Shown: piece by piece, positions 2,107-64,000 of the stretch
Numbering within the stretch: position 1 is the first letter of the stretch
Layout: every line of letters begins with the position of its first letter
Assembly (NCBI GenBank): GCA_001485605.1
Contig: FAON01000007.1
Span: 180,188 to 244,187 of the forward strand
Direction of reading: 5' to 3'
Source of the DNA: Candidatus Kryptobacter tengchongensis
GTDB lineage: Bacteria > Bacteroidota > Ignavibacteria > Kryptoniales > Kryptoniaceae
DNA length: 64,000 bases
Made by a program: the position numbers and the translations under genes
Notes under the pieces: model-generated
The model's input: only the letters and a program-made list of their open reading frames with translations
Database searches by the model: none
What the model was told of the DNA's origin: nothing

Positions 2107-5100
2107 TTAATAAGTTGGAATTATCTCCTCTTCTTGAACGATCATGAGCTTTAAAATTTTCGTCTTTCCAATATCCGGCATGTCAATATGGACAATGTAA
2201 ATACCACTTGCAACAGGAAGATTGTGCTCATTTCTTAAATTCCACCTCGCAAATTGCGAATCATCATCTTTATAAATCGTCTTCACAAGAACACCAGCAA
2301 GGTTGAATATCCTTATCGTTGCTTTCTTCGGCAAATGGTTGAAAGTTATATACTTTAACAACCTATCGGTTTCCATTAAATTAAATCCATAATATGGGTT
2401 CGGAAAAGCGTTAATTTTTTCAACATCTTGACGGGCAAGTTGAACATCACCAACTGTTGGAGCTTGTGTGACAAATACAAATGTATCAGCAGGCGTATTT
2501 ACACGATTTGGATAAAGTTTTAAAGTTACATCTGCACGGTAAGGCTCTTGAGTTCCCCTTTGATATAACCACAAAGCCCACAAAACTGGATAAGCGCTAT
2601 GATTAGAACCGTTGGTCATAAATCCTCTTCCTTGTGTTGGATCCCATGCTTTTCCAGTAGGATCATAATCACTATCTAAAATCCATATATATTCATATGG
2701 CGTAATTGCATCATTCGCATCTGAGATATCCCATTGTCTATTTGCATTTCTATCACGAACGACGACATTTAACTGCCGAGGTGAGTTCGGATTTTCAATA
2801 TCAAAAACCTGGAAAGGAACATCAAAGAACCCTTCATATGCACCATTATTCCATGTTTGATACATAAATGCTTTTTGCGATTTTGCTGGATCAACTGTAT
2901 AAGGTTCTCCAAGGTCATATTTCCCATTATTATTTGCATCTGTATATCCAGTTTTTGCAGAAAATCTAATTTCAACTGATTTAAAATCACCTGGTGCCAA
3001 GCTACTTCCAGTGAAGTTTGGACCCAAAAATACAGCACCAAATAACAGCTCACCACCATTTGCTGGATTTCCTGTGAACCATCTATTTGCAGATGGCTCT
3101 GCAACCCATTCTTTCCCAGCAAGAGGTGGACCCATTACTTTTACAAAAATACCATCAACTACCGGATAAGCTTCACCCCCAGATTGATTTGTCCCGGTTG
3201 CTTTTACCTTATTTTCATTAACATCAACGATATACCAATTCCCTTCATTATCAAATCTTACTTGATAAGTATGTCCTGTTGTGATAGATGGATCAACAAG
3301 TATGGCGACCACTTCGCCATCACTTTTACCCTTATGTATAACTTCTAAGGTATCGCCCACCACTCCAAAGTATCTTGACCCAGGCGGTGGAGATTGCGGG
3401 GTGGCTTTAAGGACAATCGGGGTGCTTTCAAGGGCTCTAAATGGAGACAATGGATCTGGGTTGTATGCATAGGCAGTCACAGCATAGTAATAAGTTTGAC
3501 CATTTACAAGCGGTCGCTGACGGATATAATCTGTGGTCAAAGCAAGAAAATGTCTTATCCCGCTATTGCTACCGGTTTGAACTGGGACTGATAAAAGAAC
3601 TCCCGTTTTCGGGTCTATAGTTCTATCAAGTATGACAGTGACATCATTGATGACATCATATGTTGCTATCTTAACAGCCTCATTTAAACCTGCTGTTGCC
3701 GAAGGTAATTGATAAACGTTGTATCCCTCAAAAATAAATCCAGCTGATTTAAAGTTCTCAATTGCATTAACACTTGCCTGATCCCATCCCCAGTTTAACA
3801 CAATTTGACGATCTAATTCAGCAACCTTAACATTTGGCGCTGGAGGTGGAGATGGCAAGACAAATAAATTATCATAGGCAAATTGAGCATAGGTATCATA
3901 ATACTTTAGAACCAAAACACTTGAAAGATTATCAGCACCCATTGCTCCTATTAAGGCAACAACTATTTCAGCTGTATCTCCAAGGCTTAATCTAAATGGA
4001 CCTGTCACATTAACAATTCTTCTATCACCTGGTGGAATTACCCTTCCATCAATCCAACCTGTCCCCGTCACAGGATCACCTGCTACAGCATATTTTGTTG
4101 GATAAGCGTTTGGATCCTGCGCTGTAAAAGCTGACCAAAATGGGACAAAAGATGGATATTCAGGTCTTGGCAAACCTCCTCTCATTAAATTAAACCATTG
4201 ATTAGCATTTGTAGGGTCACTTATACCGGTTCCAGCAGCAAAGAAAACAAATGTTGTAAGTGGATTTTCATTCCAATATTTATAACCTTTCCTCCACTCC
4301 AAGCCAATAACAGCAGAATCATTTGGATTCCCAGTATAATATGCCGGACCTTGAAGGAAATCAAAACCAACAGCTGGGGCAGGATAACCTATCGCTTGAT
4401 ATTCTGCATCAACTGTATTTGCATTATACACATAACCAAGACCAAGCACAGAATCACATCCAGCTAAATCGTCGGAATATTCCCCAAGGTCAGGGTCTGA
4501 CCACTTAACAACATAAACACTATCAATAGTTGAATTTGGATCTGCTGTTGCGGTTCCCTTGTAAATTATCCTGAATTGCTGGAAAATAATATTGTTCAAC
4601 GGATTTGAAACAGCATAACACCATTCTGTAACTTGAATTTCAAGTCCTATGGGAACTGAGCTAAACACGCTTTGACCTAAACTTGCGTCTAAATCATTAC
4701 CAACAGTCCAAACCGTCTGAGTAGCACCGGGGATACCGGGGACATGGTTGGGATTATTAGGATCAAATCCAGGTCCGTATTTTACTTTATATGCATCTGG
4801 TCCGGTGGTTGTATACCATGGCGCACCTTTATCAGCAGGCCAATCTTTCCAATCATTTTCATACTGTTGACGAAGTGCATCTTCATCAGCTGGCGTTACA
4901 TCTTTAAGTGGTTTCATAAAATATTCCGCAGCGTCAGCTTTTAAATCAGCAGTTTGATAATCAGGGCGAACTCGCCATACTCTTTTGACATCCGGAAGAT
5001 TATAATCTTCAGCTTGCCCCTTCGTTACTATCCTCCCCGGTCTTATACTTGTCCTGTAAAAAATTCCTTGCGCCCTTAAAACTGGAGAAACCCCATCATT

Positions 5101-5394
5101 AACAAGACCACCTATCATCAAACCTTCTCTATAAATCATCCCAACACCACTACCTCTGGGGAATGTCCCATTATAAGAGTTTCTAATTAGCGGTGGCCAA
5201 CCTAATCCTCCAGGAGAACTTATAACCGATATCCAACTTGTTATGTTATTCGCGTCAATGACTGTTTGTGTAACTCCAGCTGCACCTGATTTAAAGAAAA
5301 ATTCTTCACCTCTTTTCTTTAAAGGATCTTCTCTACCTACCACCAACCCAATGAAAGTTAGTATAAATATTGAAAGGATTAAAATTCTCCTCAT
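2107..5394 (-). CDS. large secreted protein with T9SS-like C-terminal tail
   Basis: A 1,095-residue exported protein. It has a signal peptide (about residues 1-20), long beta-rich stretches, and a fibronectin-III-like module around residues 515-665 (APNVKVAELDRQIVLNW... and TYYYAVTAYAYNP). Two acidic calcium-loop-like stretches (DANNNGKYDLGEPYTVD and DRNANRQWDISDANDAI) follow. It ends with a roughly 90-residue tail that resembles the type IX sorting domain: FPNPYYG, then IRIFNLAGVLVKTI, then ASGIYIVHI and KILKLMIVQ. The known fate of such tails is passage through the T9SS and attachment to the cell surface. The start has a GGAGG motif 9 bases upstream. It sits between a TonB receptor and a PorV-like gene, so a surface-exposed binding or assembly partner is likely. 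No enzymatic domain was recognised. Confidence 0.72.
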   Translation of the reverse strand: MRRILILSIFILTFIGLVVGREDPLKKRGEEFFFKSGAAGVTQTVIDANNITSWISVISSPGGLGWPPLIRNSYNGTFPRGSGVGMIYREGLMIGGLVNDGVSPVLRAQGIFYRTSIRPGRIVTKGQAEDYNLPDVKRVWRVRPDYQTADLKADAAEYFMKPLKDVTPADEDALRQQYENDWKDWPADKGAPWYTTTGPDAYKVKYGPGFDPNNPNHVPGIPGATQTVWTVGNDLDASLGQSVFSSVPIGLEIQVTEWCYAVSNPLNNIIFQQFRIIYKGTATADPNSTIDSVYVVKWSDPDLGEYSDDLAGCDSVLGLGYVYNANTVDAEYQAIGYPAPAVGFDFLQGPAYYTGNPNDSAVIGLEWRKGYKYWNENPLTTFVFFAAGTGISDPTNANQWFNLMRGGLPRPEYPSFVPFWSAFTAQDPNAYPTKYAVAGDPVTGTGWIDGRVIPPGDRRIVNVTGPFRLSLGDTAEIVVALIGAMGADNLSSVLVLKYYDTYAQFAYDNLFVLPSPPPAPNVKVAELDRQIVLNWGWDQASVNAIENFKSAGFIFEGYNVYQLPSATAGLNEAVKIATYDVINDVTVILDRTIDPKTGVLLSVPVQTGSNSGIRHFLALTTDYIRQRPLVNGQTYYYAVTAYAYNPDPLSPFRALESTPIVLKATPQSPPPGSRYFGVVGDTLEVIHKGKSDGEVVAILVDPSITTGHTYQVRFDNEGNWYIVDVNENKVKATGTNQSGGEAYPVVDGIFVKVMGPPLAGKEWVAEPSANRWFTGNPANGGELLFGAVFLGPNFTGSSLAPGDFKSVEIRFSAKTGYTDANNNGKYDLGEPYTVDPAKSQKAFMYQTWNNGAYEGFFDVPFQVFDIENPNSPRQLNVVVRDRNANRQWDISDANDAITPYEYIWILDSDYDPTGKAWDPTQGRGFMTNGSNHSAYPVLWALWLYQRGTQEPYRADVTLKLYPNRVNTPADTFVFVTQAPTVGDVQLARQDVEKINAFPNPYYGFNLMETDRLLKYITFNHLPKKATIRIFNLAGVLVKTIYKDDDSQFARWNLRNEHNLPVASGIYIVHIDMPDIGKTKILKLMIVQEEEIIPTY

Positions 5395-5421
5395 GGTTTT
5401 AAACCTCCAGATTTTATTTTT

Positions 5422-8400
5422 TTAAAATTCAATCTTCAATCCAGCTCTTAACTGTCTTGGTGGACCAAATAGATCCTGCAAAATTCCATTGAATCTCCAT
5501 TGATGTTGACGATTTTCAAGGTTGATCGCTCTATACAGTTGAATATATGTTTCGCCAAATTGTTGAACGAAACTTCCACTAAGATCTGGGTTTGTTAAGA
5601 AACCATCATCATACGCATTTCCAGTTCTGTAATAAACATTTATCACATTCTTTGTGTTAAACAAATTCTGGACATAGACATAGAAATTGATATTAGCTGG
5701 ACCAATTGAGATAGTTTTATCAACTCTCAAATCAACATTCCATACCCATGGCGTTCTTGACGCATTTATAGGTTCAAGCGGGTTTCTGTTCCTTGGATCT
5801 CCATCATTTAGGATTCCGCCATCATCAGCGTCTTGCTGTGCTATACCACCTGTGGCAAGTGTATACGGATGCCCACTGTTAAATGTTATAAGTAAGTTAA
5901 CACCAAACCTTTCAAGCAGCGGACCACCTTCACCTTTACCAAAGCGATAATCAATGTTTATGCTTCCCCTATGTGTCTGATTATAAGTTAACGGAACAGT
6001 TAATGTAGGTGTAATTTGAGTAATCCCAACCGCTGCCCACGCACCGTTTGCAAAAGAATTTGTTCCGCGCGCATCTTGCAATGTATAACTTACTTGCGCC
6101 TGAACTCTGTAGACACGACGAATCCTTAATGTAAATTCAAGCCCATAAACATTTTCAAAATCCCCATTTGCATAAACAGCATATTTTGTCCCAGCAAATG
6201 TTCCAGAAGTAATAGGCACAGTTGAAACCTGAAGCTGATTCCTAACATCTTTATAGAATCCAGTTATATCAAAAGCTGCGAAATCAGTAAACTGTTGTGA
6301 AAAACCAATCTCATACTGAGTTGTTTTAACTGGATCAGGGTCAAAAGCAAGGGGATCAGGTATCAATTCAATTGATGGAAGATATACGCTCCCGGGATAA
6401 TATGATAACCCAGCATAAAGCGAAGTCAGAGCCGGTGCCTGAACGAAAACACCATACTGGAGATGGAATACAGTTCTATCCGTAACAGGGAACGAAAATC
6501 CTAACCTCGGCTGAAGGTAAGCTCTGGGTTTACCTTTCTCAAGCCCAAGCAACTTTCTGTTAAACAAGTCAACCTCTGGAGCCGATGGGTTCTTAAATTT
6601 CCAAGCATCAAAATACATATAATCATAACGAAGCCCGGCGTTTATAATTAAATCGCTGAATTCAATCCTATCTTGAATATAAGCAGAGAAAAAGTATGGA
6701 TGCCTTGGTCCATCTTCACCTGAATCAACCTTCCTTCCAAATCTATCAAAACCATAGTTATTAACATAGCTTCCAAGCAACCTATAAAGATAATTTTCAT
6801 TCCTTGCGGAATCTGGCAAAGAATGGAATGCTCTAAACAAACCACCTGTCCCAAGTCCATAGTGGCGTACTGTCCATCTTTGATAACTTGTTCCAATTTT
6901 GAACTCGTGGTTTTTAACCTGCGATGTCAAAGCGATACTTCCGCCATAATAACCCTGCTGAAACTTGCTATATCCAGCAAACAAAGTTCCAGGTCTATAA
7001 AACGCAAATCCATAAAAATCATATGGAGGTGGACCAACATACCTGCTGACATATTTGAAACGCTCACCATATGCACGCACAACCTGTAAACTATCATCAT
7101 AAGCAAGGACATTATCACCAAAGGCTGGTTCATAGGATTTATTTCGGTAATCAAGGAAACTCACAGATGCCTCTAAAAATGTCTTTGAAGATATGAAATA
7201 GCTCGCCTTAATATCAAAGAAAAATTCGGTATTATCCGTTACTGGCAATCTCTCAAGATTGAAAATATTTCTCAACGAGTTATTTGCCCTCTCCCTTGAC
7301 CAAGTGTACGCACCCGCAACTCTTATTTGAAGCGGTTTGAAATCAAAAGTCAAAGTTCCATTCCCGGTGTATCTATTTACCATTCTACCTGGTATATTTG
7401 CATCATTCCAAGCTACAAGAGCCGAATCACCCTTTGTCCCACCTCTTCGTCCATTGTCTTTCATATATCCAAAATTATAACCCTTGAAGAAATGTGGTAT
7501 ATAATCCCTTACAAAGTTATTTTCTCCAGCCAGGAAAAACTTAACTCTTTCAGTTAGAAGTGGACCACCCAAAGTTAAAACAACATCTGAATAACCGTAA
7601 GAATATGTCCCAAGGAATTTCTTACCAGGATAATTTCCAAAATTATCTGTTTCAAATTGAGCCGATGCGGAAAACCTTGGTTTACCTGTTTTGAAAACTT
7701 GCTGAACGATTCCAGCGTTTGCATTACCAAATTCAGCATTGTAACCACCTGCTTGAACCGAGATTTCCTCAAGAGCCTCCGGGATTGTCGTCACCAAGCC
7801 ACCGCCCAACGCTCTATATCTATCCCTTGACGCAAAAGCCCCACCCCTTGCTCCAGTCCTTGCACCAAGTATATTTGTAACATTTGCCCCCTCAATCATA
7901 TAGCCAACCTCATCTGGTCTACTTCCTCTAACAAACAATCGTCCATACTGTAAACTCACCCCAGCTTGAATTGCAAAATATACATTCACATCCCTGACCG
8001 GCAACTTCTCAATATCGGTAGAGGTTACAACTCTTATTGCATTAGTGGCTGATTTCTCAATTAACGGTCTTTCAGCAACAACTTCCACAGCTCTTAACTC
8101 TATAGCTGTTGATGGCAATTCAAAATTTAATTCTCTTGTCAAACCTGCGATAACTTGAACACCTGAAACCGTAACAGTTTGATATCCAACATAAGAAGCA
8201 ACAACTGTATACACTCCAGCTGGGACATTTAAAATAACATAATTCCCGTTTACATCAGCCGCAGCCCCAAGCGTTGTCCCTTGAATCACAATTGATGCCC
8301 CAGGAAGAGGCTCTTTTGTTTCCTTATCAACAACCTTCCCAGCAATTTTACCATATTGAGCAAATATGACTTGAAAAGAGACTAACAATAATGAAACCGA

Positions 8401-11530: not shown

Positions 11531-12932
11531 GCCCTTCGCTTAAATCAAGTATTATATCATCAACTTTCTCAAGCCCTATGGACAATCTAATTCCACCCGG
11601 GTCTATTCCCTTTTTCAATTGCTCTTCAGCTGGAATAGTTGCATGTGTCATTGAGCCGGGGTGTTCAATCAAGGTTCTCACATTCCCGAGACTTACGGCA
11701 AGCGTTATGGTATATGCATTTTTCGCAAGATAATTTATAAGTTTTTCAGCTTTTTTTCTCCTGCCCTCTGGTGATTCATCTTTTATAACAAAATAAATCA
11801 AAGTACCAGGGGCAAAATTACCTTCGTAATCAACCATTTGTTTTTTTGCAAGCTCGTATTGTGGAAATGTATGAAGCCCCGGATAACTTACATATTGAAC
11901 TTTTGGATGGGAACAGAGAAATCTTGCGACTTCCATAGCTGTTTTTTCCTGCTGGCGCACTCTTAATGCAAGCGTTGGCAAACCATAAACAAGAATAGCC
12001 CAAGCGCTTTTCGTCCCGAGAACCCCGCCAAAATCCTTTCTATAAAGCAACAATTGATCTCTGCTCCATTTTGGACCGATAACAACACCACCCATATCTG
12101 TCCCAAATCCACCAATGTTCTTGGTCAAGGAATGAACGACAAAATCAGCACCAAGTGTAAGTGGTCTCTGACAAAATGGAGTCGCAAATGTGTTATCAAC
12201 AACGATATAAATTTTTTCATTTGGCTTTCGCTTCTTGTTTTCTTCCTTGACTATTTCCGCAACTCCCGCAATATCAATAAGCTCAAGCGTTGGATTAACA
12301 GGTGTCTCAAAGTAAACAACCCTTGTCTTTGGGGTAATGGCTTTCTTGAGATTGGAGAGATCACGAAGATCAATAAATTTAGTGCTGATTTGATATCTTG
12401 GATACCAATAAGTTAAAAGTTCATAAGTACATCCGTATAAAAGTTTATGTGCTATAACCTCATCACCTGTTCTTGTCAAAATTCCGAGAACAGCTGAAAT
12501 TGCTCCCATTCCTGATGCAAATGTCACAGCGGATTCACCTTGTTCCGCATACGCAAGGTATTCCTCAAGCATCTCTTTGTTTGGCTCGCCAAGACGATCG
12601 TAAATATAAATTGGCGCTTTAACTTCAACTTCCTCGTTATTCACAGTATGGGCAAACTGCAAAAATCCAAGTGCGCCTCTCTGCGCTGATTCAAGCCTGA
12701 ATGTAGCTGAAGCGGAAATTGGCGGAACTACATGATGGGAATATTCCCATTTTGGGGTAAATGAACGACCATAAATCAGGTGGGTTTCCATTGAATATTT
12801 TTCTTCATTATTCCTCCTTTTTCTCGGGGACTTCTCCCGAGCCGAACTCATTGAGCCATTTTCAATTACTCCCTTTCGCTTCGGGGACTTTTCCCGAATC
12901 GAACTCGCTGAACCGTTTTGCTTTTTTACCAT
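11517..12932 (-). CDS. Cys/Met-metabolism PLP enzyme (gamma-synthase/gamma-lyase type) with repeat-bearing N-terminus
   Basis: A 471-residue fold-type-I PLP enzyme of the trans-sulfuration family. It has YDRLGEPNKEMLEEYLAYAE, the phosphate-binding FASGMGAISAVL, DNTFATPFCQRPL, and the Schiff-base lysine in HSLTKNIGGFG (about Lys271). The family includes cystathionine gamma-synthase and lyase, O-acetylhomoserine sulfhydrylase and methionine gamma-lyase; sequence alone does not separate them. The catalytic domain begins at METHLIYGR (Met48). The first 47 residues hold two 19-residue Lys/Arg/Ser-rich repeats not seen in the family. The ATG at 12932 is supported by AAGGAGGG 7 bases upstream. A second AAAGGAGG lies before Met48, but its well-spaced ATG is out of frame. 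I saw no SAM riboswitch in the leader. Confidence 0.85.
   Translation of the reverse strand: MVKKQNGSASSIREKSPKRKGVIENGSMSSAREKSPRKRRNNEEKYSMETHLIYGRSFTPKWEYSHHVVPPISASATFRLESAQRGALGFLQFAHTVNNEEVEVKAPIYIYDRLGEPNKEMLEEYLAYAEQGESAVTFASGMGAISAVLGILTRTGDEVIAHKLLYGCTYELLTYWYPRYQISTKFIDLRDLSNLKKAITPKTRVVYFETPVNPTLELIDIAGVAEIVKEENKKRKPNEKIYIVVDNTFATPFCQRPLTLGADFVVHSLTKNIGGFGTDMGGVVIGPKWSRDQLLLYRKDFGGVLGTKSAWAILVYGLPTLALRVRQQEKTAMEVARFLCSHPKVQYVSYPGLHTFPQYELAKKQMVDYEGNFAPGTLIYFVIKDESPEGRRKKAEKLINYLAKNAYTITLAVSLGNVRTLIEHPGSMTHATIPAEEQLKKGIDPGGIRLSIGLEKVDDIILDLSEGLAKI
12807..12920 (-). repeat. two tandem 57-bp units with conserved hairpins inside a coding region
   Basis: The units at 12864-12920 and 12807-12863 encode QNGSASSIREKSPKRKGVI and ENGSMSSAREKSPRKRRNN. 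Each contains a perfect inverted repeat with a 7-base loop: TTCGGG 12880-12885 with CCCGAA 12893-12898, and CTCGGG 12823-12828 with CCCGAG 12836-12841. The outer base pair changes on both sides together, so the pairing is kept while the bases differ. Confidence 0.75.
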
Positions 12933-13142
12933 AAAATTCCCTCCTTAAGTGAGGTAGGTTTGTTTTCAAATTTAATTTAAAAAACGAATTAAAAATTTAC
13001 AAGCAAAAGGTATCACTAATTTTTCTTGGTTTAGGGTTATGAAAGCGACAAAATTTATCTACCACACGCTGATCAAAGTTTTACATATTGAGGTGAGCCT
13101 GAATTTGTTTTTGAGATGTAAAAATTTTAAATTTTTAAAAAA

Positions 13143-13214
13143 GCTGGCGTAGCTCAGCGGTAGAGCAGCTGATTCGTAATCAGCAGGGCGTGGGTTCAAA
13201 TCCCACCGCCAGCT
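13143..13214 (+). tRNA. tRNA-Thr (anticodon CGT)
   Basis: A full cloverleaf in 72 bases. The acceptor GCTGGCG pairs with CGCCAGC, and the D-stem is GCTC/GAGC. The anticodon stem GCTGA/TCAGC encloses loop TTCGTAA (anticodon CGT), the T-stem is GTGGG/CCCAC with loop TTCAAAT, and the discriminator is T. The 3' CCA is not encoded. It reads ACG codons. The rest of the 367-base gap (12933-13299) is AT-rich leader on the left and the amidase promoter on the right. Confidence 0.96.
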
Positions 13215-13250
13215 CTTTATTACTCCATCTACATCTTCCCACTTTTATTA

Positions 13251-13279
13251 TTGAAACAATCAATCCCAAGTTTTATATT
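13251..13279 (+). promoter_or_regulatory. promoter of the amidase-SpmA-SpmB unit
   Basis: -35 TTGAAA (13251-13256), 17-base spacer, -10 TATATT (13274-13279). The predicted start is about 13286, only some 14 bases before the ATG at 13300, and no Shine-Dalgarno is present. The mRNA would be almost leaderless. Confidence 0.65.
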
Positions 13280-13299
13280 TACTCAAAAAGTTCATTCAA

Positions 13300-14361
13300 A
13301 TGAAAGCCTTCATTAAATTCTACTTCTTCCTCCTGTTGATTTTTCTAAATTTTGCCTGCGCTCCAAAGCCTTACTATGTCATACCAAATGAGTGGAAAAC
13401 CCCAGAGAGAAAAGATTCAGTGATTAATTTTTACTCCAAATTTCTTAACGGATGGAAAATTTTCATTGACCCAGGGCATGGGGGAAAAGACAGGAAAAAC
13501 ATTGGAATTAAAAAAAGAATTGTTGAAGCAGATGTTAATTTGAAGGTTGCACTCTACCTCCGAGATTATCTTGCTAAAGCTGGCGTAACTGTCTTTATGT
13601 CAAGAGATAAAGATACGACAGTTTCACTTGAAGAAAGAGTAAAAATGGCAACTGAAAGTGGTGCCGACATTTTCATTTCCATACATCATAACGCAATGCC
13701 CGGGGATGAAAACACTTTCTATGCCTCAACTTGGTATCACGCAGTTGAGGGCGACCCTAAATTTCACCCTTGCAACAGGGACATCGCAAGATATATTCAA
13801 AGAGACCTCGCTTATGCATTGAGAATCTCTGGCTCCCTTGCAAGTTTTGATGGAACAATGTCGGACTACCTCGTTTACCCAAAACAAGGATTTTATGTCT
13901 TAAGAAACGCAACAATGCCTGCTGTTCTTGTTGAATGCACATTTTTCACAAATGAATATGAAGAAAGAAAATTAAGCATTGACGAATTTAACCGAATTGA
14001 AGCATGGGGAATTTTTAAAGGCATTGCAAAATATATCCAGGCAGGGGTCCCAAAAATTGAATTCATTTCGGATACGATTTTAACTTCCGAAAAACCAACA
14101 ATTCTTCTAAAGGTTTCCGATAAATCAGGGATTGATAAACAAAACATTCAAATAAAAATTGACACTATCCTTGTAAGTAAAGACCACATTACTACAATTG
14201 ATGGCAACGGCTTTGCAATTGTTCTTTTCACTCCGAACTTTAAACTTACAGAGGGAACACATCAGATTGACATCATAGTCAGAAACAAAAATGGAAACTC
14301 ATCTTTCCCATTTAAAAGGAACATATACATTTATAAACAAAAACAGGTGACAGAACCATGA
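13300..14361 (+). CDS. lipoprotein N-acetylmuramoyl-L-alanine amidase (Amidase_3)
   Basis: A 353-residue envelope hydrolase that cuts the bond between muramic acid and the peptide stem. The leader ends in LNFAC (Cys near residue 20), which suggests a lipid anchor. The catalytic domain (about 50-240) has FIDPGHGGKD with the first zinc His, EADVNLKVALYL with the zinc Glu, ISIHHNAMPG with the second zinc His, and VLVECTFFTN with the catalytic Glu. After it comes a roughly 100-residue beta-rich domain that may bind wall or a partner. The stop overlaps the next start (ATGA at 14358-14361), tying it to the SpmA-like protein. Confidence 0.88.
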   Translation: MKAFIKFYFFLLLIFLNFACAPKPYYVIPNEWKTPERKDSVINFYSKFLNGWKIFIDPGHGGKDRKNIGIKKRIVEADVNLKVALYLRDYLAKAGVTVFMSRDKDTTVSLEERVKMATESGADIFISIHHNAMPGDENTFYASTWYHAVEGDPKFHPCNRDIARYIQRDLAYALRISGSLASFDGTMSDYLVYPKQGFYVLRNATMPAVLVECTFFTNEYEERKLSIDEFNRIEAWGIFKGIAKYIQAGVPKIEFISDTILTSEKPTILLKVSDKSGIDKQNIQIKIDTILVSKDHITTIDGNGFAIVLFTPNFKLTEGTHQIDIIVRNKNGNSSFPFKRNIYIYKQKQVTEP

Positions 14362-15356
14362 TGAACTACATCTGGCTTGCTTTGGTAATAATCGGAATAA
14401 TCACAGCTGTTGGAACAGATGTTTATGAAAGTTTAACGAATAAATACAAAAATGGCGTTGAATTTGAAGCTATAGTTGAACTCAATGAAGAAATGAGGAT
14501 GCGAACCCCAATTAAGGGAACTTTGAAAGTTAGTGGCGAATACTATAAAAACTTTTACTCGCTTAATAATTTCCCACATGATAGTGTAAAAAACGAAGTG
14601 ATTTTAAACTTAAAAGAAGATGGCAAAGGGACTGCGATTTTAAACATCTCGGAAGGCACGCCCAATTTCTGGAAAATTATGGCGAAAGGGAAAGGGACAA
14701 ACACAGATAAACTTATTGCGAATATCTTGAAGATTGAAAAAGTGGGAGAAAATAGATATAAAGTTTTTCTTATTTTTGAGCGGATTTCACTTGTAAAAAT
14801 CAAGCAAGTTTTAAACGCTGTCATTGAATATTCAGATATAGCGGTTAAAATAGCAATTGGATTAATTGGCATAATGGCTTTATGGCTTGGGATAATGAAG
14901 ATTGGTGAGCTCGCTGGATTGATAAATTTACTTGCAAAAGTTGTAAAGCCATTGACAAAACGACTTTTCCCTGATATCCCTCCCGAACACCCAGCGATAG
15001 GTGCAATAATAATGAACATTTCCGCAAATATGCTTGGACTTGGAAACGCAGCAACACCACTTGGATTAAAAGCAATGGAAGAACTTCAAAAGTTAAATCC
15101 AAAGAAAGATACCGCAAGCGATTCAATGATCACTTTTCTTGTGATTAATACAAGCGGGATGACTTTAATACCCGCAACTGCGATCGCTGTAAGAGCTGCG
15201 CTTGGCTCTGGAGATCCAGCAGCAATCATCAGCACAACAATTATCGGAGGATTTGCTGCAACCATCGCTGGAATAACATCGGCAAAAATTTTACAAAAGT
15301 TGAAAATTTTTAGAAAGGAACTTGAAGAAAACAACAAAAGCGAGGAACAAGGATGA
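14358..15356 (+). CDS. SpmA-like nucleoside-recognition (Gate) membrane protein with N-terminal soluble domain
   Basis: A 332-residue membrane protein. After one N-terminal helix (residues 4-20) there is a soluble beta-rich stretch of about 110 residues (NGVEFEAIVELNEEMRMR through YKVFLIFERISL). The Gate-domain helices follow, with IMALWLGIMKIGELAGL, PAIGAIIMNISANMLGLG and NAATPLGLKAMEEL, as in SpmA (spore maturation protein A). Family members occur widely in non-spore-formers, and their transport role is not settled. The soluble insertion is unusual for SpmA. The gene overlaps the amidase before it and the SpmB-like gene after it by four bases each, so the three are translated together. Confidence 0.8.
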   Translation: MMNYIWLALVIIGIITAVGTDVYESLTNKYKNGVEFEAIVELNEEMRMRTPIKGTLKVSGEYYKNFYSLNNFPHDSVKNEVILNLKEDGKGTAILNISEGTPNFWKIMAKGKGTNTDKLIANILKIEKVGENRYKVFLIFERISLVKIKQVLNAVIEYSDIAVKIAIGLIGIMALWLGIMKIGELAGLINLLAKVVKPLTKRLFPDIPPEHPAIGAIIMNISANMLGLGNAATPLGLKAMEELQKLNPKKDTASDSMITFLVINTSGMTLIPATAIAVRAALGSGDPAAIISTTIIGGFAATIAGITSAKILQKLKIFRKELEENNKSEEQG

Positions 15357-59581: not shown

Positions 59582-61132
59582 TTATTTGATCTTGACACTA
59601 CGCCATGGAACAGAGGTTGGGCTTACTACTTTCTCATAAGCTCCAATATCAAATCCCTGCCCCTGAGGTCTCGGGTTTCCATCTAAATCTATTAATGGTG
59701 CTGAATTTTCCGTACCTTTATCTATTGCAGGACTTCCATCGTTAAGATGATAATCACCCTCAGAGCCCCAGGCAGTCCGAATGAAAAGAGGATCGCCGTA
59801 AATGTTCCCTTCCCCCAGCTGTCCAATGTTATCCCGAGTATAAACTTGATCCCTGTATTCAAGAACCCTCTCTGACCGTGGAAAATAGAATAAATTGTGA
59901 TCTGCAGTTAAAGTTACATTGTTTCCTATATAAATAGGCGAGTCGTTTCCCCTGCTTGAAAAGATCGTGTTTCTAATTAGAAGTCTTATCGGAACAGTAC
60001 TGCTATACTGAACATATGCAACATAACCTTCTCCAAGCTCATCATCTACAGTAACATTGATGATCTCAAAGGTAGCGTCTGGCTTTTCAACTTGGTCAAT
60101 TACAATTGCCCCCCACGGGGTTGGCAAATTTTTGCCGTCACCTCTACCATATATGAGTGTATTTTCTATTTTACTTCCTGAACCCCAAAGTTTAATACCA
60201 TCGCATGAATTATTTGCCACAATACATCTCTTTATAATTGTATTCTCAGCTTTGGAATCAAGTCCATCGCCCTCATTGTGTTCAGCAATGGTGTTTTCTA
60301 TTAAAACCGGACCCTGGGAAGGTTCTATACCAAACCCATCTGGACGATCATATGGGCGATTTGAACCATCTCCACCTTGATAATAATGTCCACTATAAGA
60401 TAATCTGCAATTTTGAATCTTTACATTTCTCCACCCCCCGTAATTTCCTAAGGGACCACCAAGAGCGCCAAAACCACAATATTCAATCCTGCAATTTATG
60501 ATCTGAAGGTCCTCAACATCTTGAATGTTCATCCCAAATTCATCAATATGGTGAATATAAAGATCTTTAAGGATAATATGAGATGATGGATTTCCTAAAA
60601 TTTCCACGCCATCGCGAAACCATGTCGCTTCTCCGGTTACCGTGCTATCATGAGTGATTTCCAGATTTTCCACACAAACATACTGAACACCGGAGAGGTT
60701 AACAGCTGTTATAAGGTTATCCCGACCAAGCAAAATTGGACGATTGCCCTCTTCACCTTTAATGGTTATCCATGCTGAAGGTGTCCCAGATCTTGGTGTG
60801 ATGATGTCAGCCTCATATTCACTTAAGATATAACGACCGCCCAAAATAACTAAAGTATCCCCAGGTTGCAGTTGGCGTGAGCCATAGCCAGGGGTAGCCC
60901 AAGGCTGTTCACGAGTGCCAGGATTGGAGTTGTTACCATAGGGTGCAACATAAAATACATGCCCTAAAACAATCTTCCCTCCAGTTTCCTTGTTTGCTCC
61001 GGGACCACTTCCTTCATCAACACCGCTAATATAGTTTTTACTTTTACAACCGTATAATACTAAAGAAAAACCTAACATAAAGAAAATTGCAACAAAAGTG
61101 CTCAATTTTACACTTATTACTTGAGCCCGCAT
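59582..61132 (-). CDS. lipoprotein with right-handed parallel beta-helix
   Basis: A 516-residue protein with a lipoprotein-type leader (FMLGFSLVLYGC, Cys near residue 28). The start of the mature domain (HVFYVAPYGNNSNPGTREQP, WATPGYGSRQLQPGDTLVI) is typical of DUF1565/pectate-lyase-like beta helices. Successive rungs follow (ENLEITHDSTV, LKDLYIHHIDEFGMNIQ, IINCRIEYCG, VKIQNCRLSYSG, VLIENTIAEHNEGDG, TIIKRCIVANNSCDGIKLWG), and the end is YHLNDGSPAIDKGTENSAP. Such folds bind or cut polysaccharides, or serve as surface proteins; no catalytic residues could be assigned. The G+C looks higher than in the CRISPR genes beside it. It has its own promoter, a palindrome at the start site and a GGGGGG ribosome site. 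Confidence 0.82.
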   Translation of the reverse strand: MRAQVISVKLSTFVAIFFMLGFSLVLYGCKSKNYISGVDEGSGPGANKETGGKIVLGHVFYVAPYGNNSNPGTREQPWATPGYGSRQLQPGDTLVILGGRYILSEYEADIITPRSGTPSAWITIKGEEGNRPILLGRDNLITAVNLSGVQYVCVENLEITHDSTVTGEATWFRDGVEILGNPSSHIILKDLYIHHIDEFGMNIQDVEDLQIINCRIEYCGFGALGGPLGNYGGWRNVKIQNCRLSYSGHYYQGGDGSNRPYDRPDGFGIEPSQGPVLIENTIAEHNEGDGLDSKAENTIIKRCIVANNSCDGIKLWGSGSKIENTLIYGRGDGKNLPTPWGAIVIDQVEKPDATFEIINVTVDDELGEGYVAYVQYSSTVPIRLLIRNTIFSSRGNDSPIYIGNNVTLTADHNLFYFPRSERVLEYRDQVYTRDNIGQLGEGNIYGDPLFIRTAWGSEGDYHLNDGSPAIDKGTENSAPLIDLDGNPRPQGQGFDIGAYEKVVSPTSVPWRSVKIK

Positions 61133-61191
61133 TTTATACCCCCCCTTACTTTCTTTTTTTACTTTATTTTAATCCCGAATCTATTTAAATG

Positions 61192-61205
61192 TTTACCCAG
61201 GTAAA
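61192..61205. promoter_or_regulatory. palindrome at the beta-helix gene start site
   Basis: TTTACC (61192-61197) and GGTAAA (61200-61205) form a 14-base inverted repeat with centre CA. It touches the -10 and covers the predicted transcription start, a place where a repressor would act. Confidence 0.35.
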
Positions 61206-61233
61206 GTATAATAAATACTTACTAAAAAATCAA
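61205..61233 (-). promoter_or_regulatory. promoter of the beta-helix lipoprotein gene
   Basis: On the minus strand, TTGATT (61233-61228), 17-base spacer, TATACT (61210-61205). It lies only 5 bases from the last CRISPR repeat, so array and gene are read in series. Confidence 0.55.
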
Positions 61234-61237
61234 GACA

Positions 61238-61467
61238 GTTTAAATTCCACACTGGTTCAATGCTCACAGAGGTTGCGGGAAAAATTGAAATCCTTAAAAG
61301 CGCGTTTAAATTCCACACTGGTTCAATGCTCACTCTGACAATCTTGAGTATGATCCAGGTTCGAACACGGTTTAAATTCCACACTGGTTCAATGCTCACT
61401 TTTTAGCACATATAGCACCCTATGAGATAGTTCTCTAGTTTAAATTCCACACTGGTTCAATGCTCAC
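61238..61467 (-). CRISPR. short CRISPR array: 4 identical 30-bp repeats, 3 spacers
   Basis: Repeats at 61238-61267, 61304-61333, 61370-61399 and 61438-61467 are identical. Spacers are 36, 36 and 38 bases. On the plus strand each repeat opens with GTTTAAATTCC and closes with CAATGCTCAC. Read on the minus strand the 3' end is GGAATTTAAAC, which resembles the ATTGAAAC-like 5' handle of type I-B crRNAs. The array is therefore probably transcribed on the minus strand, from the same side as the cas genes, with the newest spacer at 61438. Repeat and spacer lengths fit type I-B. Confidence 0.95.
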
Positions 61468-61590
61468 CCTTTAAAAATAAGCAATTTCAAGCGAAAAAAG
61501 CAAATTTCCGAAGCTAAAGTTTAGTCGCGGAGGAAAATGCAAAAAAACCCAGCCTGCGACAAAGTATTAACTTATCGCACCTTTCTTAAA
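61468..61590 (-). promoter_or_regulatory. CRISPR leader
   Basis: A 123-base AT-rich non-coding stretch lies between the cas2 remnant and the first repeat. On the minus strand it has GTCGCAGG and CCGCGAC in inverted orientation around a GGGTTTTTTTGC run, the general look of CRISPR leaders. Its position directly before the array on the cas-gene side supports the inferred direction. Confidence 0.6.
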
Positions 61591-61752
61591 CTAAATTATT
61601 CTATTCGTATCCCCCTTTTCTAAACCTATAATTTCCCTCTCTATCCACTTCTTCTCCATTGAATAAATCAAAATTGAATCTTTATCCTGCTTTATTAATT
61701 TTTTCAACCTCAACTTTAACTCTTCAAATTGTGTCTCACTTACCTTTACTCC
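61591..61752 (-). pseudogene. cas2: C-terminal fragment of cas2
   Basis: On the minus strand, in a frame different from cas3, the sequence reads GVKVSETQFEELKLRLKKLI, then KQDKDSILIYSMEKKW, then IEREIIGLEKGDTNRII and a stop at 61593-61591. This matches the second half of Cas2 proteins in order and length: F-E-G-x-hydrophobic-S/T-E, KDSVLIY, GKEKG and a terminal N-I-I. Upstream the frame meets a stop (61776-61774) without any ATG, GTG or TTG start, and the first about 38 residues of Cas2, including the catalytic Asp strand, are missing. It overlaps the end of cas3 by 7 bases. Confidence 0.8.
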
Positions 61753-63923
61753 ATATAAATACCAAATGTATTGCTATATTTGTAATCCACTACTTTAATG
61801 TTAAGCAAAAATTCTTTTATTTCATCATTCTTAACGTGATCACTAAGAGAGGATAAAGAATTTCCTTTTATCCTATAAAGAGGAATTGGAACCATAAAAT
61901 CTTTGATGAGTTCCATAAATAAGATTTTTTCTTTTCTATCTTTGAGTCTTATTCTTTCAATAATGTTTCTAAGAGAATCTTTTTCAAGGTTAAGTTTCTT
62001 TAGTATTTCTTCATTTTGGACCTCCTGATCTAATAAACATTTTGGAATAACCTCAATTTGACTTATATCACGAAATACTTCTTGCGCTTCCGTTTTTTTA
62101 TTAACTGAATAGTGTTTAACACTTTTTAATGCATTATTAAATTTAGTCCAATAATTGGTATTTTTTATATTTTCTTTAGAATAAAATTCTTCCGTCATTT
62201 GATACTTTTCTTTTTCAGATAAGATTCCACTCTTTAGAAAATCTTTAGATTTTTCCATAATCTCCTTTTCATAAACTGTTCCAATTCCTGAGGGGTCTTT
62301 TGTAAAAATATACACATTAGGTTCTGAGGGATAAAATTCACCATCACTTTTAAATCTCCTATAAATTCTGCCCATTCTTTGTACTAAAACATCCAAAGGA
62401 GACATTTCAGTGATTAAAATATCAAAATCAATATCAAGTGAAACTTCAATAACCTGAGTAGAGATTAAAATTCCTTTAAAATCTTCTCTTAGCACAATAT
62501 TTTCTTTAAAATTCCTATCAAACCGCGTAAATCTGGAATGAAGTAATAAGGGTGAAAATTCTTTTAAAATTTTATATAACTCTTGAGCTTTTTCAACAGT
62601 ATTACACACAATTAGAATTTTACCTATTCCGTTGCTGATTAATTTTGACAGTAGTTTTTTTATGGTATTTTCTGCTAAAGGTTCATCCACCAACTTAACA
62701 TTATGCTTTTTTAAATTTGGAATTTTAGTTATTGAGAAATCAAGCGGGAGTTCATCTCTTACGAAAGATGGGAAAGTAGCTGTAACTATCAAAAATTTGC
62801 CACCTATAGAGGCTATTTCTTTTAAACCATGGATTATTATAGCCATTGTTTGAGGTGAATACGCTTGTATCTCATCAACTATCACCTTTGAATAGGAAAG
62901 AGTTGCATAAATTTTCTCAAAACCCAAATATTTCAAAGTTGCAGTAAAAATTTGATCAGCTGTGGAAACTATCAATGGATAAGATAAATTTTTAGCCATA
63001 TCGTAATGATAGAAAATATCATCTGTTGATAATTTTCTTTCCTCAAAAAATAAATTGCTCATTGCATCTGAATGAAGTAATCCAACTTTCTCCTTTCCAA
63101 ATAGTCCCTTCAATCTTCTAAACATAGCAGTAACTGAGGTTCTTACGGGTAGAGTATAAAAAGTCTTTTGGGAATTACTCCACAATAAAGACATTTCTGT
63201 TTTACCCATTCCTGTAGAGGCTATAACAATTCCATTCTTATTTTTATAATCTTTACTTACTTTACTTAATTCTGATAACTGCCATGGTTTAGCGGTCTTC
63301 TTTAGCAAAAAATTTTTGGTTATTTCATATTTATTGATTGGCTCAATTTCTACTGGAACTCCAGCAGATGCTGAATGATCTATTCTGTTTAATAAACCCA
63401 AGAGAATAACGAATTTTGATTCATTTTCTAAATCAATACCTCCATCTATTCTCCGAAAATAATATCTCTGAAGTTTTTCCAAATCTTTTTTGAATTCAAG
63501 AACTTTCTTCAAGTTGAAAGATTTATTGAAATACTCTTCTAATTTTGAAATATAGCGAGAAATATCATTACGAATTTCCTCTATTTTCTTTTCTCTCAAA
63601 TCAGGAAAATCTCTCCAATGATGGAAAGCCACAAGTTTTAAAAGCATCTCACTTTCATTTGGTAAGAAAAAGAGTGATAAAAAATTGTGTGGGATATCTG
63701 AAAGATTGAGAGATTCTCTGATCTTTTTCTGAAAAACTGAATTTGCTTTACCAAAATCATGGTAAAAGCATGCTTTTTTTAATATCTCCCAATCTTCTTC
63801 TCCAAGATTTATCCCCACCTTATTTGCTAATTTTCTTAAATTATCAAATGCATTCATCACATCATCAATGTGTTCTTTCAATGTCTTTTGAGGATGTGAT
63901 TTGGCTATTATTTCATCCACCAT
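61746..63923 (-). CDS. cas3: CRISPR-associated nuclease/helicase Cas3
   Basis: A 725-residue type I effector that unwinds and degrades target DNA recruited by Cascade. The HD nuclease domain has CFYHDFGKAN (His55, Asp56) and LVAFHHWRDF (His101-His102). The helicase has Walker A ASTGMGKTEMS (Lys241), the Cas3-type motif II IVDEIQAYSP (350-353), TATFPSF (motif III) and LVQRMGRIYRR (motif VI, about 515-523). All catalytic motifs are intact, so it should work. It overlaps the preceding gene by 16 bases. Two 60-base lines inside it (62401 and 63301) have only 17 and 15 G or C, lower than most of the window, which suggests acquisition by transfer. Confidence 0.95.
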   Translation of the reverse strand: MVDEIIAKSHPQKTLKEHIDDVMNAFDNLRKLANKVGINLGEEDWEILKKACFYHDFGKANSVFQKKIRESLNLSDIPHNFLSLFFLPNESEMLLKLVAFHHWRDFPDLREKKIEEIRNDISRYISKLEEYFNKSFNLKKVLEFKKDLEKLQRYYFRRIDGGIDLENESKFVILLGLLNRIDHSASAGVPVEIEPINKYEITKNFLLKKTAKPWQLSELSKVSKDYKNKNGIVIASTGMGKTEMSLLWSNSQKTFYTLPVRTSVTAMFRRLKGLFGKEKVGLLHSDAMSNLFFEERKLSTDDIFYHYDMAKNLSYPLIVSTADQIFTATLKYLGFEKIYATLSYSKVIVDEIQAYSPQTMAIIIHGLKEIASIGGKFLIVTATFPSFVRDELPLDFSITKIPNLKKHNVKLVDEPLAENTIKKLLSKLISNGIGKILIVCNTVEKAQELYKILKEFSPLLLHSRFTRFDRNFKENIVLREDFKGILISTQVIEVSLDIDFDILITEMSPLDVLVQRMGRIYRRFKSDGEFYPSEPNVYIFTKDPSGIGTVYEKEIMEKSKDFLKSGILSEKEKYQMTEEFYSKENIKNTNYWTKFNNALKSVKHYSVNKKTEAQEVFRDISQIEVIPKCLLDQEVQNEEILKKLNLEKDSLRNIIERIRLKDRKEKILFMELIKDFMVPIPLYRIKGNSLSSLSDHVKNDEIKEFLLNIKVVDYKYSNTFGIYME

Positions 63924-64000
63924 ATTGGTATTCCATCTATATGTATTTTTAATTTTTTCGCAACTGTTTGTTCTGCATGAGCATATTTGACTTTTATCAT
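63908..64000 (-). CDS. end of a gene upstream of cas3, probably cas5
   Basis: The last 31 codons of an open frame read VKYAHAEQTVAKKLKIHIDG, then IPIWWMK and a stop at 63910-63908, overlapping the cas3 start by 16 bases. In type I-B operons the gene immediately before cas3 is normally cas5, and Cas5 proteins often end in a short beta strand with aromatic residues. The rest lies beyond the window, so the family is inferred from position only. Confidence 0.5.
   Translation of the reverse strand: MIKVKYAHAEQTVAKKLKIHIDGIPIWWMK

Follow-up and report, generated by a model that had tools for sequence, protein, structure and literature searches.

CRISPR-Cas loci without adaptation genes are well known, and passages in three papers describe such systems (PMC12669027, PMC6452270, PMC12596717); the step that produces them has rarely been caught. 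Replacement of effector genes beside a resident cas6 and resident adaptation genes is also described in passages of two papers (PMC6452270, PMC5704561), and in the relevant part of PMC5704561 the adaptation genes of the cases examined are said to stay untouched. The window analysed here is a stretch of 64,000 nucleotides from Candidatus Kryptobacter tengchongensis (genome G000, contig C7, positions 180188-244187), the end of which is also the end of the contig. At this end, on the minus strand, cas3 adjoins the last codons of a cas2, followed by a leader and a short CRISPR array (Table 1). We consider it probable that this locus suffered a recent in-place loss, most likely one deletion, which left a read-only system. 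The leader and the four identical repeats, already pointed out in a sequence-only reading of the window, were both present. No RNA family reached its gathering score within 61100-64000. None of the three spacers had an exact match for its 26-base core in the viral collection, and no spacer was common to this array and the other arrays compared.

Table 1. Features at the end of the window (window coordinates)
Feature	Position	Strand	Evidence
cas5, 3' end	63908..64000	-	Translation of 64000-63908 stops at TAA; matches the Cas5 end on contig C6
cas3, 725 aa, helicase and HD domains	61746..63923	-	TIGR01587 and TIGR01596 above cut-offs
cas3/cas2 join, within this interval	61732..61757	-	Cas3 tails, and identity to P0121 from 61731
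cas2 stump, last 46 codons and stop	61591..61731	-	PF09827 positions 37-73; P0121 46/46
Array leader	61468..61590	-	Likeness to K. thompsonii and C11 leaders
CRISPR array, 4 identical 30-bp repeats, 3 spacers (38, 36 and 36 bp)	61238..61467	-	

The frame that contains the cas2 stump (61773-61591, minus strand) comprises 60 codons with stop codons at both ends. In a whole-genome profile search it matched positions 37-73 of the 74 in PF09827 (E 1.4e-6; 31.2 bits, cut-off 23.8), and with TIGR01573 it scored 20.9 bits, below the cut-off of 24.5 as expected of a fragment. Cas2 profile matches under the cut-off were also seen on contig C4 of this genome (12.7 bits) and contig C20 of G003 (18.3 bits). 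A protein search with the 60-residue frame returned two proteins, both of them Cas2, which together with the profile match rules out a chance likeness. The better match, P0121, is an intact metagenomic Cas2 of 95 aa encoded on an 811-bp contig, and it was identical to the stump in 46/46 residues, from the Q codon at 61731 through the stop. Over the same 46 residues, the next best, P0122 (Candidatus Kryptonium sp.), had 38 identities, followed by the Cas2 of G002, a second species of the genus (28), that of Candidatus Kryptonium thompsonii (27) and the complete Cas2 of this genome itself (18). These results bear out the earlier suggestion that the frame is the C-terminal part of Cas2, for which a profile search had been proposed. 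They also indicate that an undeleted allele exists, and since no residue of the stump differs from it, the event looks recent. Relaxed selection on the stump, considered from its 53% identity to the K. thompsonii Cas2, was dropped given the identity to P0121.

The Cas2 N-terminus carries a conserved acidic residue. The N-terminal strand is missing from the stump, and the whole Cas2 fold is therefore not present; without this part and with its own cas1 gone, the stump is presumably dead. It is hardly credible that it yields a functional product, be it a short protein of its own or an addition to Cas3 reached by frameshifting. The frame is indeed open over its 60 codons and unchanged in 46 residues with respect to P0121, but the lack of change is accounted for by a recent event, the stump and cas3 are in different frames, and there is no ATG, GTG or TTG in the first 20 codons. 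The sequence-only reading had called the frame start-less, which holds for these 20 codons and not for those further on, where in-frame TTG codons at 61713, 61707 and 61671 would give 40 (the longest), 38 and 26 residues, respectively, and an ATG at 61659 would give 22.

The window Cas3 scored 239.5 bits with TIGR01587 and 89.6 bits with TIGR01596. Its alignment with Cas3 relatives is secure up to the codon ending at 61758, and the first certain Cas2 codon is at 61731; the join is thus located between 61757 and 61732. The joined ends predicted from the sequence were real, although they had been placed slightly too far upstream, at 61752-61775. The protein ends 3 residues past a conserved Gly-Ile, compared with 9 in its nearest relatives (P0004 and P0005) and more than 9 in K. 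thompsonii. A short tail alone is not diagnostic, because P0014 ends only 4 residues past the same Gly-Ile. Three further cas3 clusters on four contigs (P0001-P0003), with 1, 6 and 8 residue differences from the window Cas3, all had its unusual tail; they end before certain cas2 sequence and hence back the join only indirectly, and they may not be independent of this assembly.

These tails bear on whether sequences of two strains or species were wrongly assembled into the join, which we regard as very unlikely. The bin is a 16-contig draft, the cas2 in question has an intact allele, and 127-bp k-mers are held in common by the window contig end and contig C6 and by another contig pair; however, the join lies in unique sequence and not in a repeat, the same tail recurs in the three other clusters, and collinearity with K. 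thompsonii extends over both flanks. The contig ends at the 127-bp k-mer common to C6 (63874-64000), in the cas5/cas3 overlap region and 2.2 kb from the join, a sign of an assembly-graph branch and perhaps of strain variation. Elsewhere in the genome, on C5 (L017, 1533-3977), about 2.4 kb of unrelated genes lie between two identical repeats, and the end of the stand-alone array on C11 (L018), which has six spacers, has exactly 127 bp in common with C5:3979-4105. Sequence may have been inserted between the repeats, or the assembly may branch through a CRISPR repeat.

Among the named genomes scanned, two encode a close cas3. In one of them, K. thompsonii JGI-4 (LDXX01000001.1, L039; also G001), the syntenic locus is intact, with the order methyltransferase-cas6-cas8-cas7-cas5-cas3-cas4-cas1-cas2-leader-array and 34 exact repeats. 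The two loci are alike in flanks, gene order and kind of leader and have nearly the same repeat, and beyond the array, along with intervening genes, each genome has a gene for a multihaem cytochrome (89% identical between the two) and one for a cupin (84%). Identity is even from the methyltransferase through cas6, cas8, cas7, cas5 and cas3, at 66-78%. They differ in that K. thompsonii has cas4, cas1, a whole cas2 and the long array, whereas the window has the stump and four repeats. On the K. thompsonii scale, the window lacks about 1.75 kb (positions 12173-13927), which comprises the final codons of cas3, all of cas4 and cas1, and the first part of cas2. The order cas5-cas3-cas4-cas1-cas2-leader-array, which had been given as the normal one, was therefore seen at the syntenic place, and the proposal that its ends are joined in the window held, cas4 and cas1 being absent between cas3 and the leader and cas2 being a stump. 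It had also been considered that relatives might have the stump frame as a complete short gene; in G001 and G002 the gene is instead a whole cas2 of 86-87 aa.

Beyond the window, contig C6 starts with the last 127 bases of the window contig and carries the remainder of the cas5 whose 3' end overlaps the cas3 start, then cas7, cas8, cas6 and a methyltransferase gene. Cas7 (Cst2/DevR; TIGR02585, 150.9 bits), Cas5t (TIGR01895, 112.1 bits) and Cas6 (TIGR01877, 103.4 bits, NCBIfam) were over their cut-offs. The 587-aa gene at the place of cas8 (large subunit) is named by place only, matching no NCBIfam model, and is 66% identical to its K. thompsonii counterpart. With these genes on C6, the effector set of this type I-B locus is complete, Cas7 and Cas5t being of the I-B kind. 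The effector is presumably expressed and active, and targets that match the three stored spacers are likely still cut.

A plain deletion is the simplest origin of the join. One recent deletion, from the cas3 end to the middle of cas2, would have removed about 1.75 kb in place, and the resulting system would likely still interfere by means of its three spacers and is predicted to lack the ability to gain new ones on its own. A second origin is possible, although we do not hold it probable, namely an effector-module replacement with its right edge at the join, in which a foreign cas8-cas7-cas5-cas3 block was set behind the resident cas6 and overshot into cas2, the adaptation genes being lost as collateral. 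It concerns only how the join arose, the predicted outcome being the same. In its favour, Cas8, Cas7, Cas5 and Cas3 are 88, 95, 90 and 86% identical, respectively, to a block in an Omnitrophota MAG (L038), where the neighbours of the block are a cas6 unrelated to ours (31%) on one side and different adaptation genes on the other (21% between the stump and its Cas2), and the described replacements beside resident cas6 and adaptation genes provide a precedent. However, additional sequence borders the block on either side in L038, which would suit L038 as the recipient, and vertical descent would give just such an even identity to K. thompsonii. The Cas3 tree nests this species with the Omnitrophota MAG and a MAG labelled as an archaeon, K. 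thompsonii being outside. Grouping of our Cas3 with that of K. thompsonii was rejected (p-AU 5.6e-8), as was our clade plus K. thompsonii without P0008 (p 0.002), whereas the wider clade of our Cas3, P0008 and K. thompsonii was not (p 0.4); these p-values flatter the result, since the tested groups were named after the tree had been viewed. From these sequence comparisons, it is well supported that the effector block moved between lineages, which applies to the movement itself and not to its direction. The stretch of L038 in question (JAMWDI010000003.1, 6670-12205), 86-95% identical to the block on C6 and C7, may represent a transfer between phyla or a mis-binning of the MAG. We nevertheless favour an in-place loss with a read-only outcome, most likely through a single deletion.

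A second, independent stump, which also speaks for the main reading, was found in G002. On its contig C21, the type I-B effector block is a different one (Cas3 has 893 residues; Cas7 and Cas5 exceed their cut-offs), and cas3 is followed by the last 36 codons of cas1, then by a full cas2 with a leader and array behind it. The array beside this cas2 has two exact repeats, identical to those of the window, and one degenerate repeat; the Cas2 is 79% identical to that of K. thompsonii. The cas1 stump is identical to the intact metagenomic Cas1 P0130 in 36/36 residues and to P0128 in 35/36, and a cas1 was not found in this genome, which is 78% complete. Among the genomes seen, three (G000, G001 and G002) have cas genes next to an array of this kind, and two of these three carry stumps. 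Their right ends differ, whereas both left ends fall at the end of a cas3, and in G002 a clearly different effector block meets a cas1 stump, cas2 and repeat of the resident type, two features that favour replacement. At loci of the second I-B type, cas4, cas1 and cas2 are kept behind cas3 in 6/6 genomes (G000, G001, G003-G006). It is conceivable, although rather unlikely, that this genus swaps I-B effector modules at the border between cas3 and the adaptation genes, cutting resident cas1 or cas2 and leaving read-only systems with leader and array kept; populations would then be polymorphic for learning, as intact alleles of both cut genes still exist. It was also noticed that in G002 a leader and array are located on both sides of the cas operon (L053, G002:C21:8000-27000; 4498-5712 and 14281-14619), and that these leaders hardly differ (score 337, shuffled maximum 27), which would fit a duplication of leader and array.

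The sequence-only reading had described the system as able to interfere and unable to acquire spacers, and had proposed a search for cas1 and cas4 elsewhere in the genome. The first part agrees with the effector operon completed by C6. The second is qualified by a complete cas4-cas1-cas2 set of another type at C12:1586-3483; the only cas1, complete cas2 and cas4 of the genome over cut-off are all at this left end of C12, and acquisition in trans is therefore possible. A type I-B/III-A composite is reported for all Kryptonia genomes in a passage of PMC4737851, and the C12 locus is likely this composite, because Csm1 is encoded on the same contig (C12:15810-18320). At positions 1-1045 of C12 (L003), two short genes (ORFs 165-773 and 770-1045) at the contig end reach the second array and run into it.

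That the window array is not frozen, the C12 Cas4-Cas1-Cas2 adding spacers to it in trans, is considered unlikely. Trans supply is shown in Flavobacterium columnare in a passage of PMC8092290 and proposed for a Haloferax proviral I-B system in a passage of PMC12596717, and the set on C12 is complete. In addition, G004 (C13, C6 and C26; L054, L055 and L056) carries 101 repeats of the kind found in the window, and its only cas1 is of the other type, a hint that arrays of this kind can depend on the other set; cas7 of the window's kind was not found there at E 1e-15. On the other hand, the C12 repeat is identical to that of the window at just 23/30 positions, and the C12 leader resembled the window leader no more than shuffled sequences did (score 22, shuffled maximum 26). 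The window leader scored 66 with the K. thompsonii leader (shuffled maximum 26), 72 with that of the C11 array (25) and, marginally, 31 with that of G002 (29). Moreover, the two kinds of Cas1 are 53% identical (K. thompsonii vs C12), K. thompsonii retains the two sets in complete form, with a separate repeat and array for each, and the window array has three spacers only. The C12 set therefore probably does not serve the window array. According to a passage in PMC4737851, K. thompsonii genomes look clonal in their spacers, with no active acquisition, which would fit a low value of acquisition in the genus.

A narrow search of the open literature, by which absence is not proven, found no paper on cas1 or cas2 stumps joined to cas3. 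Stumps with intact sister genes (46/46 and 36/36) and an intact congener were observed here twice in one genus, with different breakpoints. This makes it testable whether a read-only CRISPR is a transient step in decay, is favoured by selection or arises as a side effect of effector swaps; selection would mean that useful memories are kept without the cost of self-targeting.

In the type I-F fusion, a whole Cas2 precedes Cas3 in one protein. The window resembles it in that cas2 and cas3 sequences adjoin, but has only the end of Cas2, located after Cas3 and in another frame. Effector genes without cas1, cas2 and cas4 at the locus are likewise found in types IV, VII, III-G and III-H and in the proviral I-B system of Haloferax lucentense; as these are described in the passages on them, the module is absent without trace or by rule of the subtype, whereas the window retains a stump and has an intact sister allele, which suggests that its loss was in place and recent. 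The locus is also similar to the in situ effector replacements described in parts of PMC5704561 and PMC6452270, as its block is related to that of another phylum and its cas6, cas2, leader and repeat are of the resident type. The replacements in these passages spare the adaptation genes, whereas the borders in the window and G002 fall inside cas2 or cas1, and an origin as a by-product of effector swapping, if true, would depart from that published pattern.
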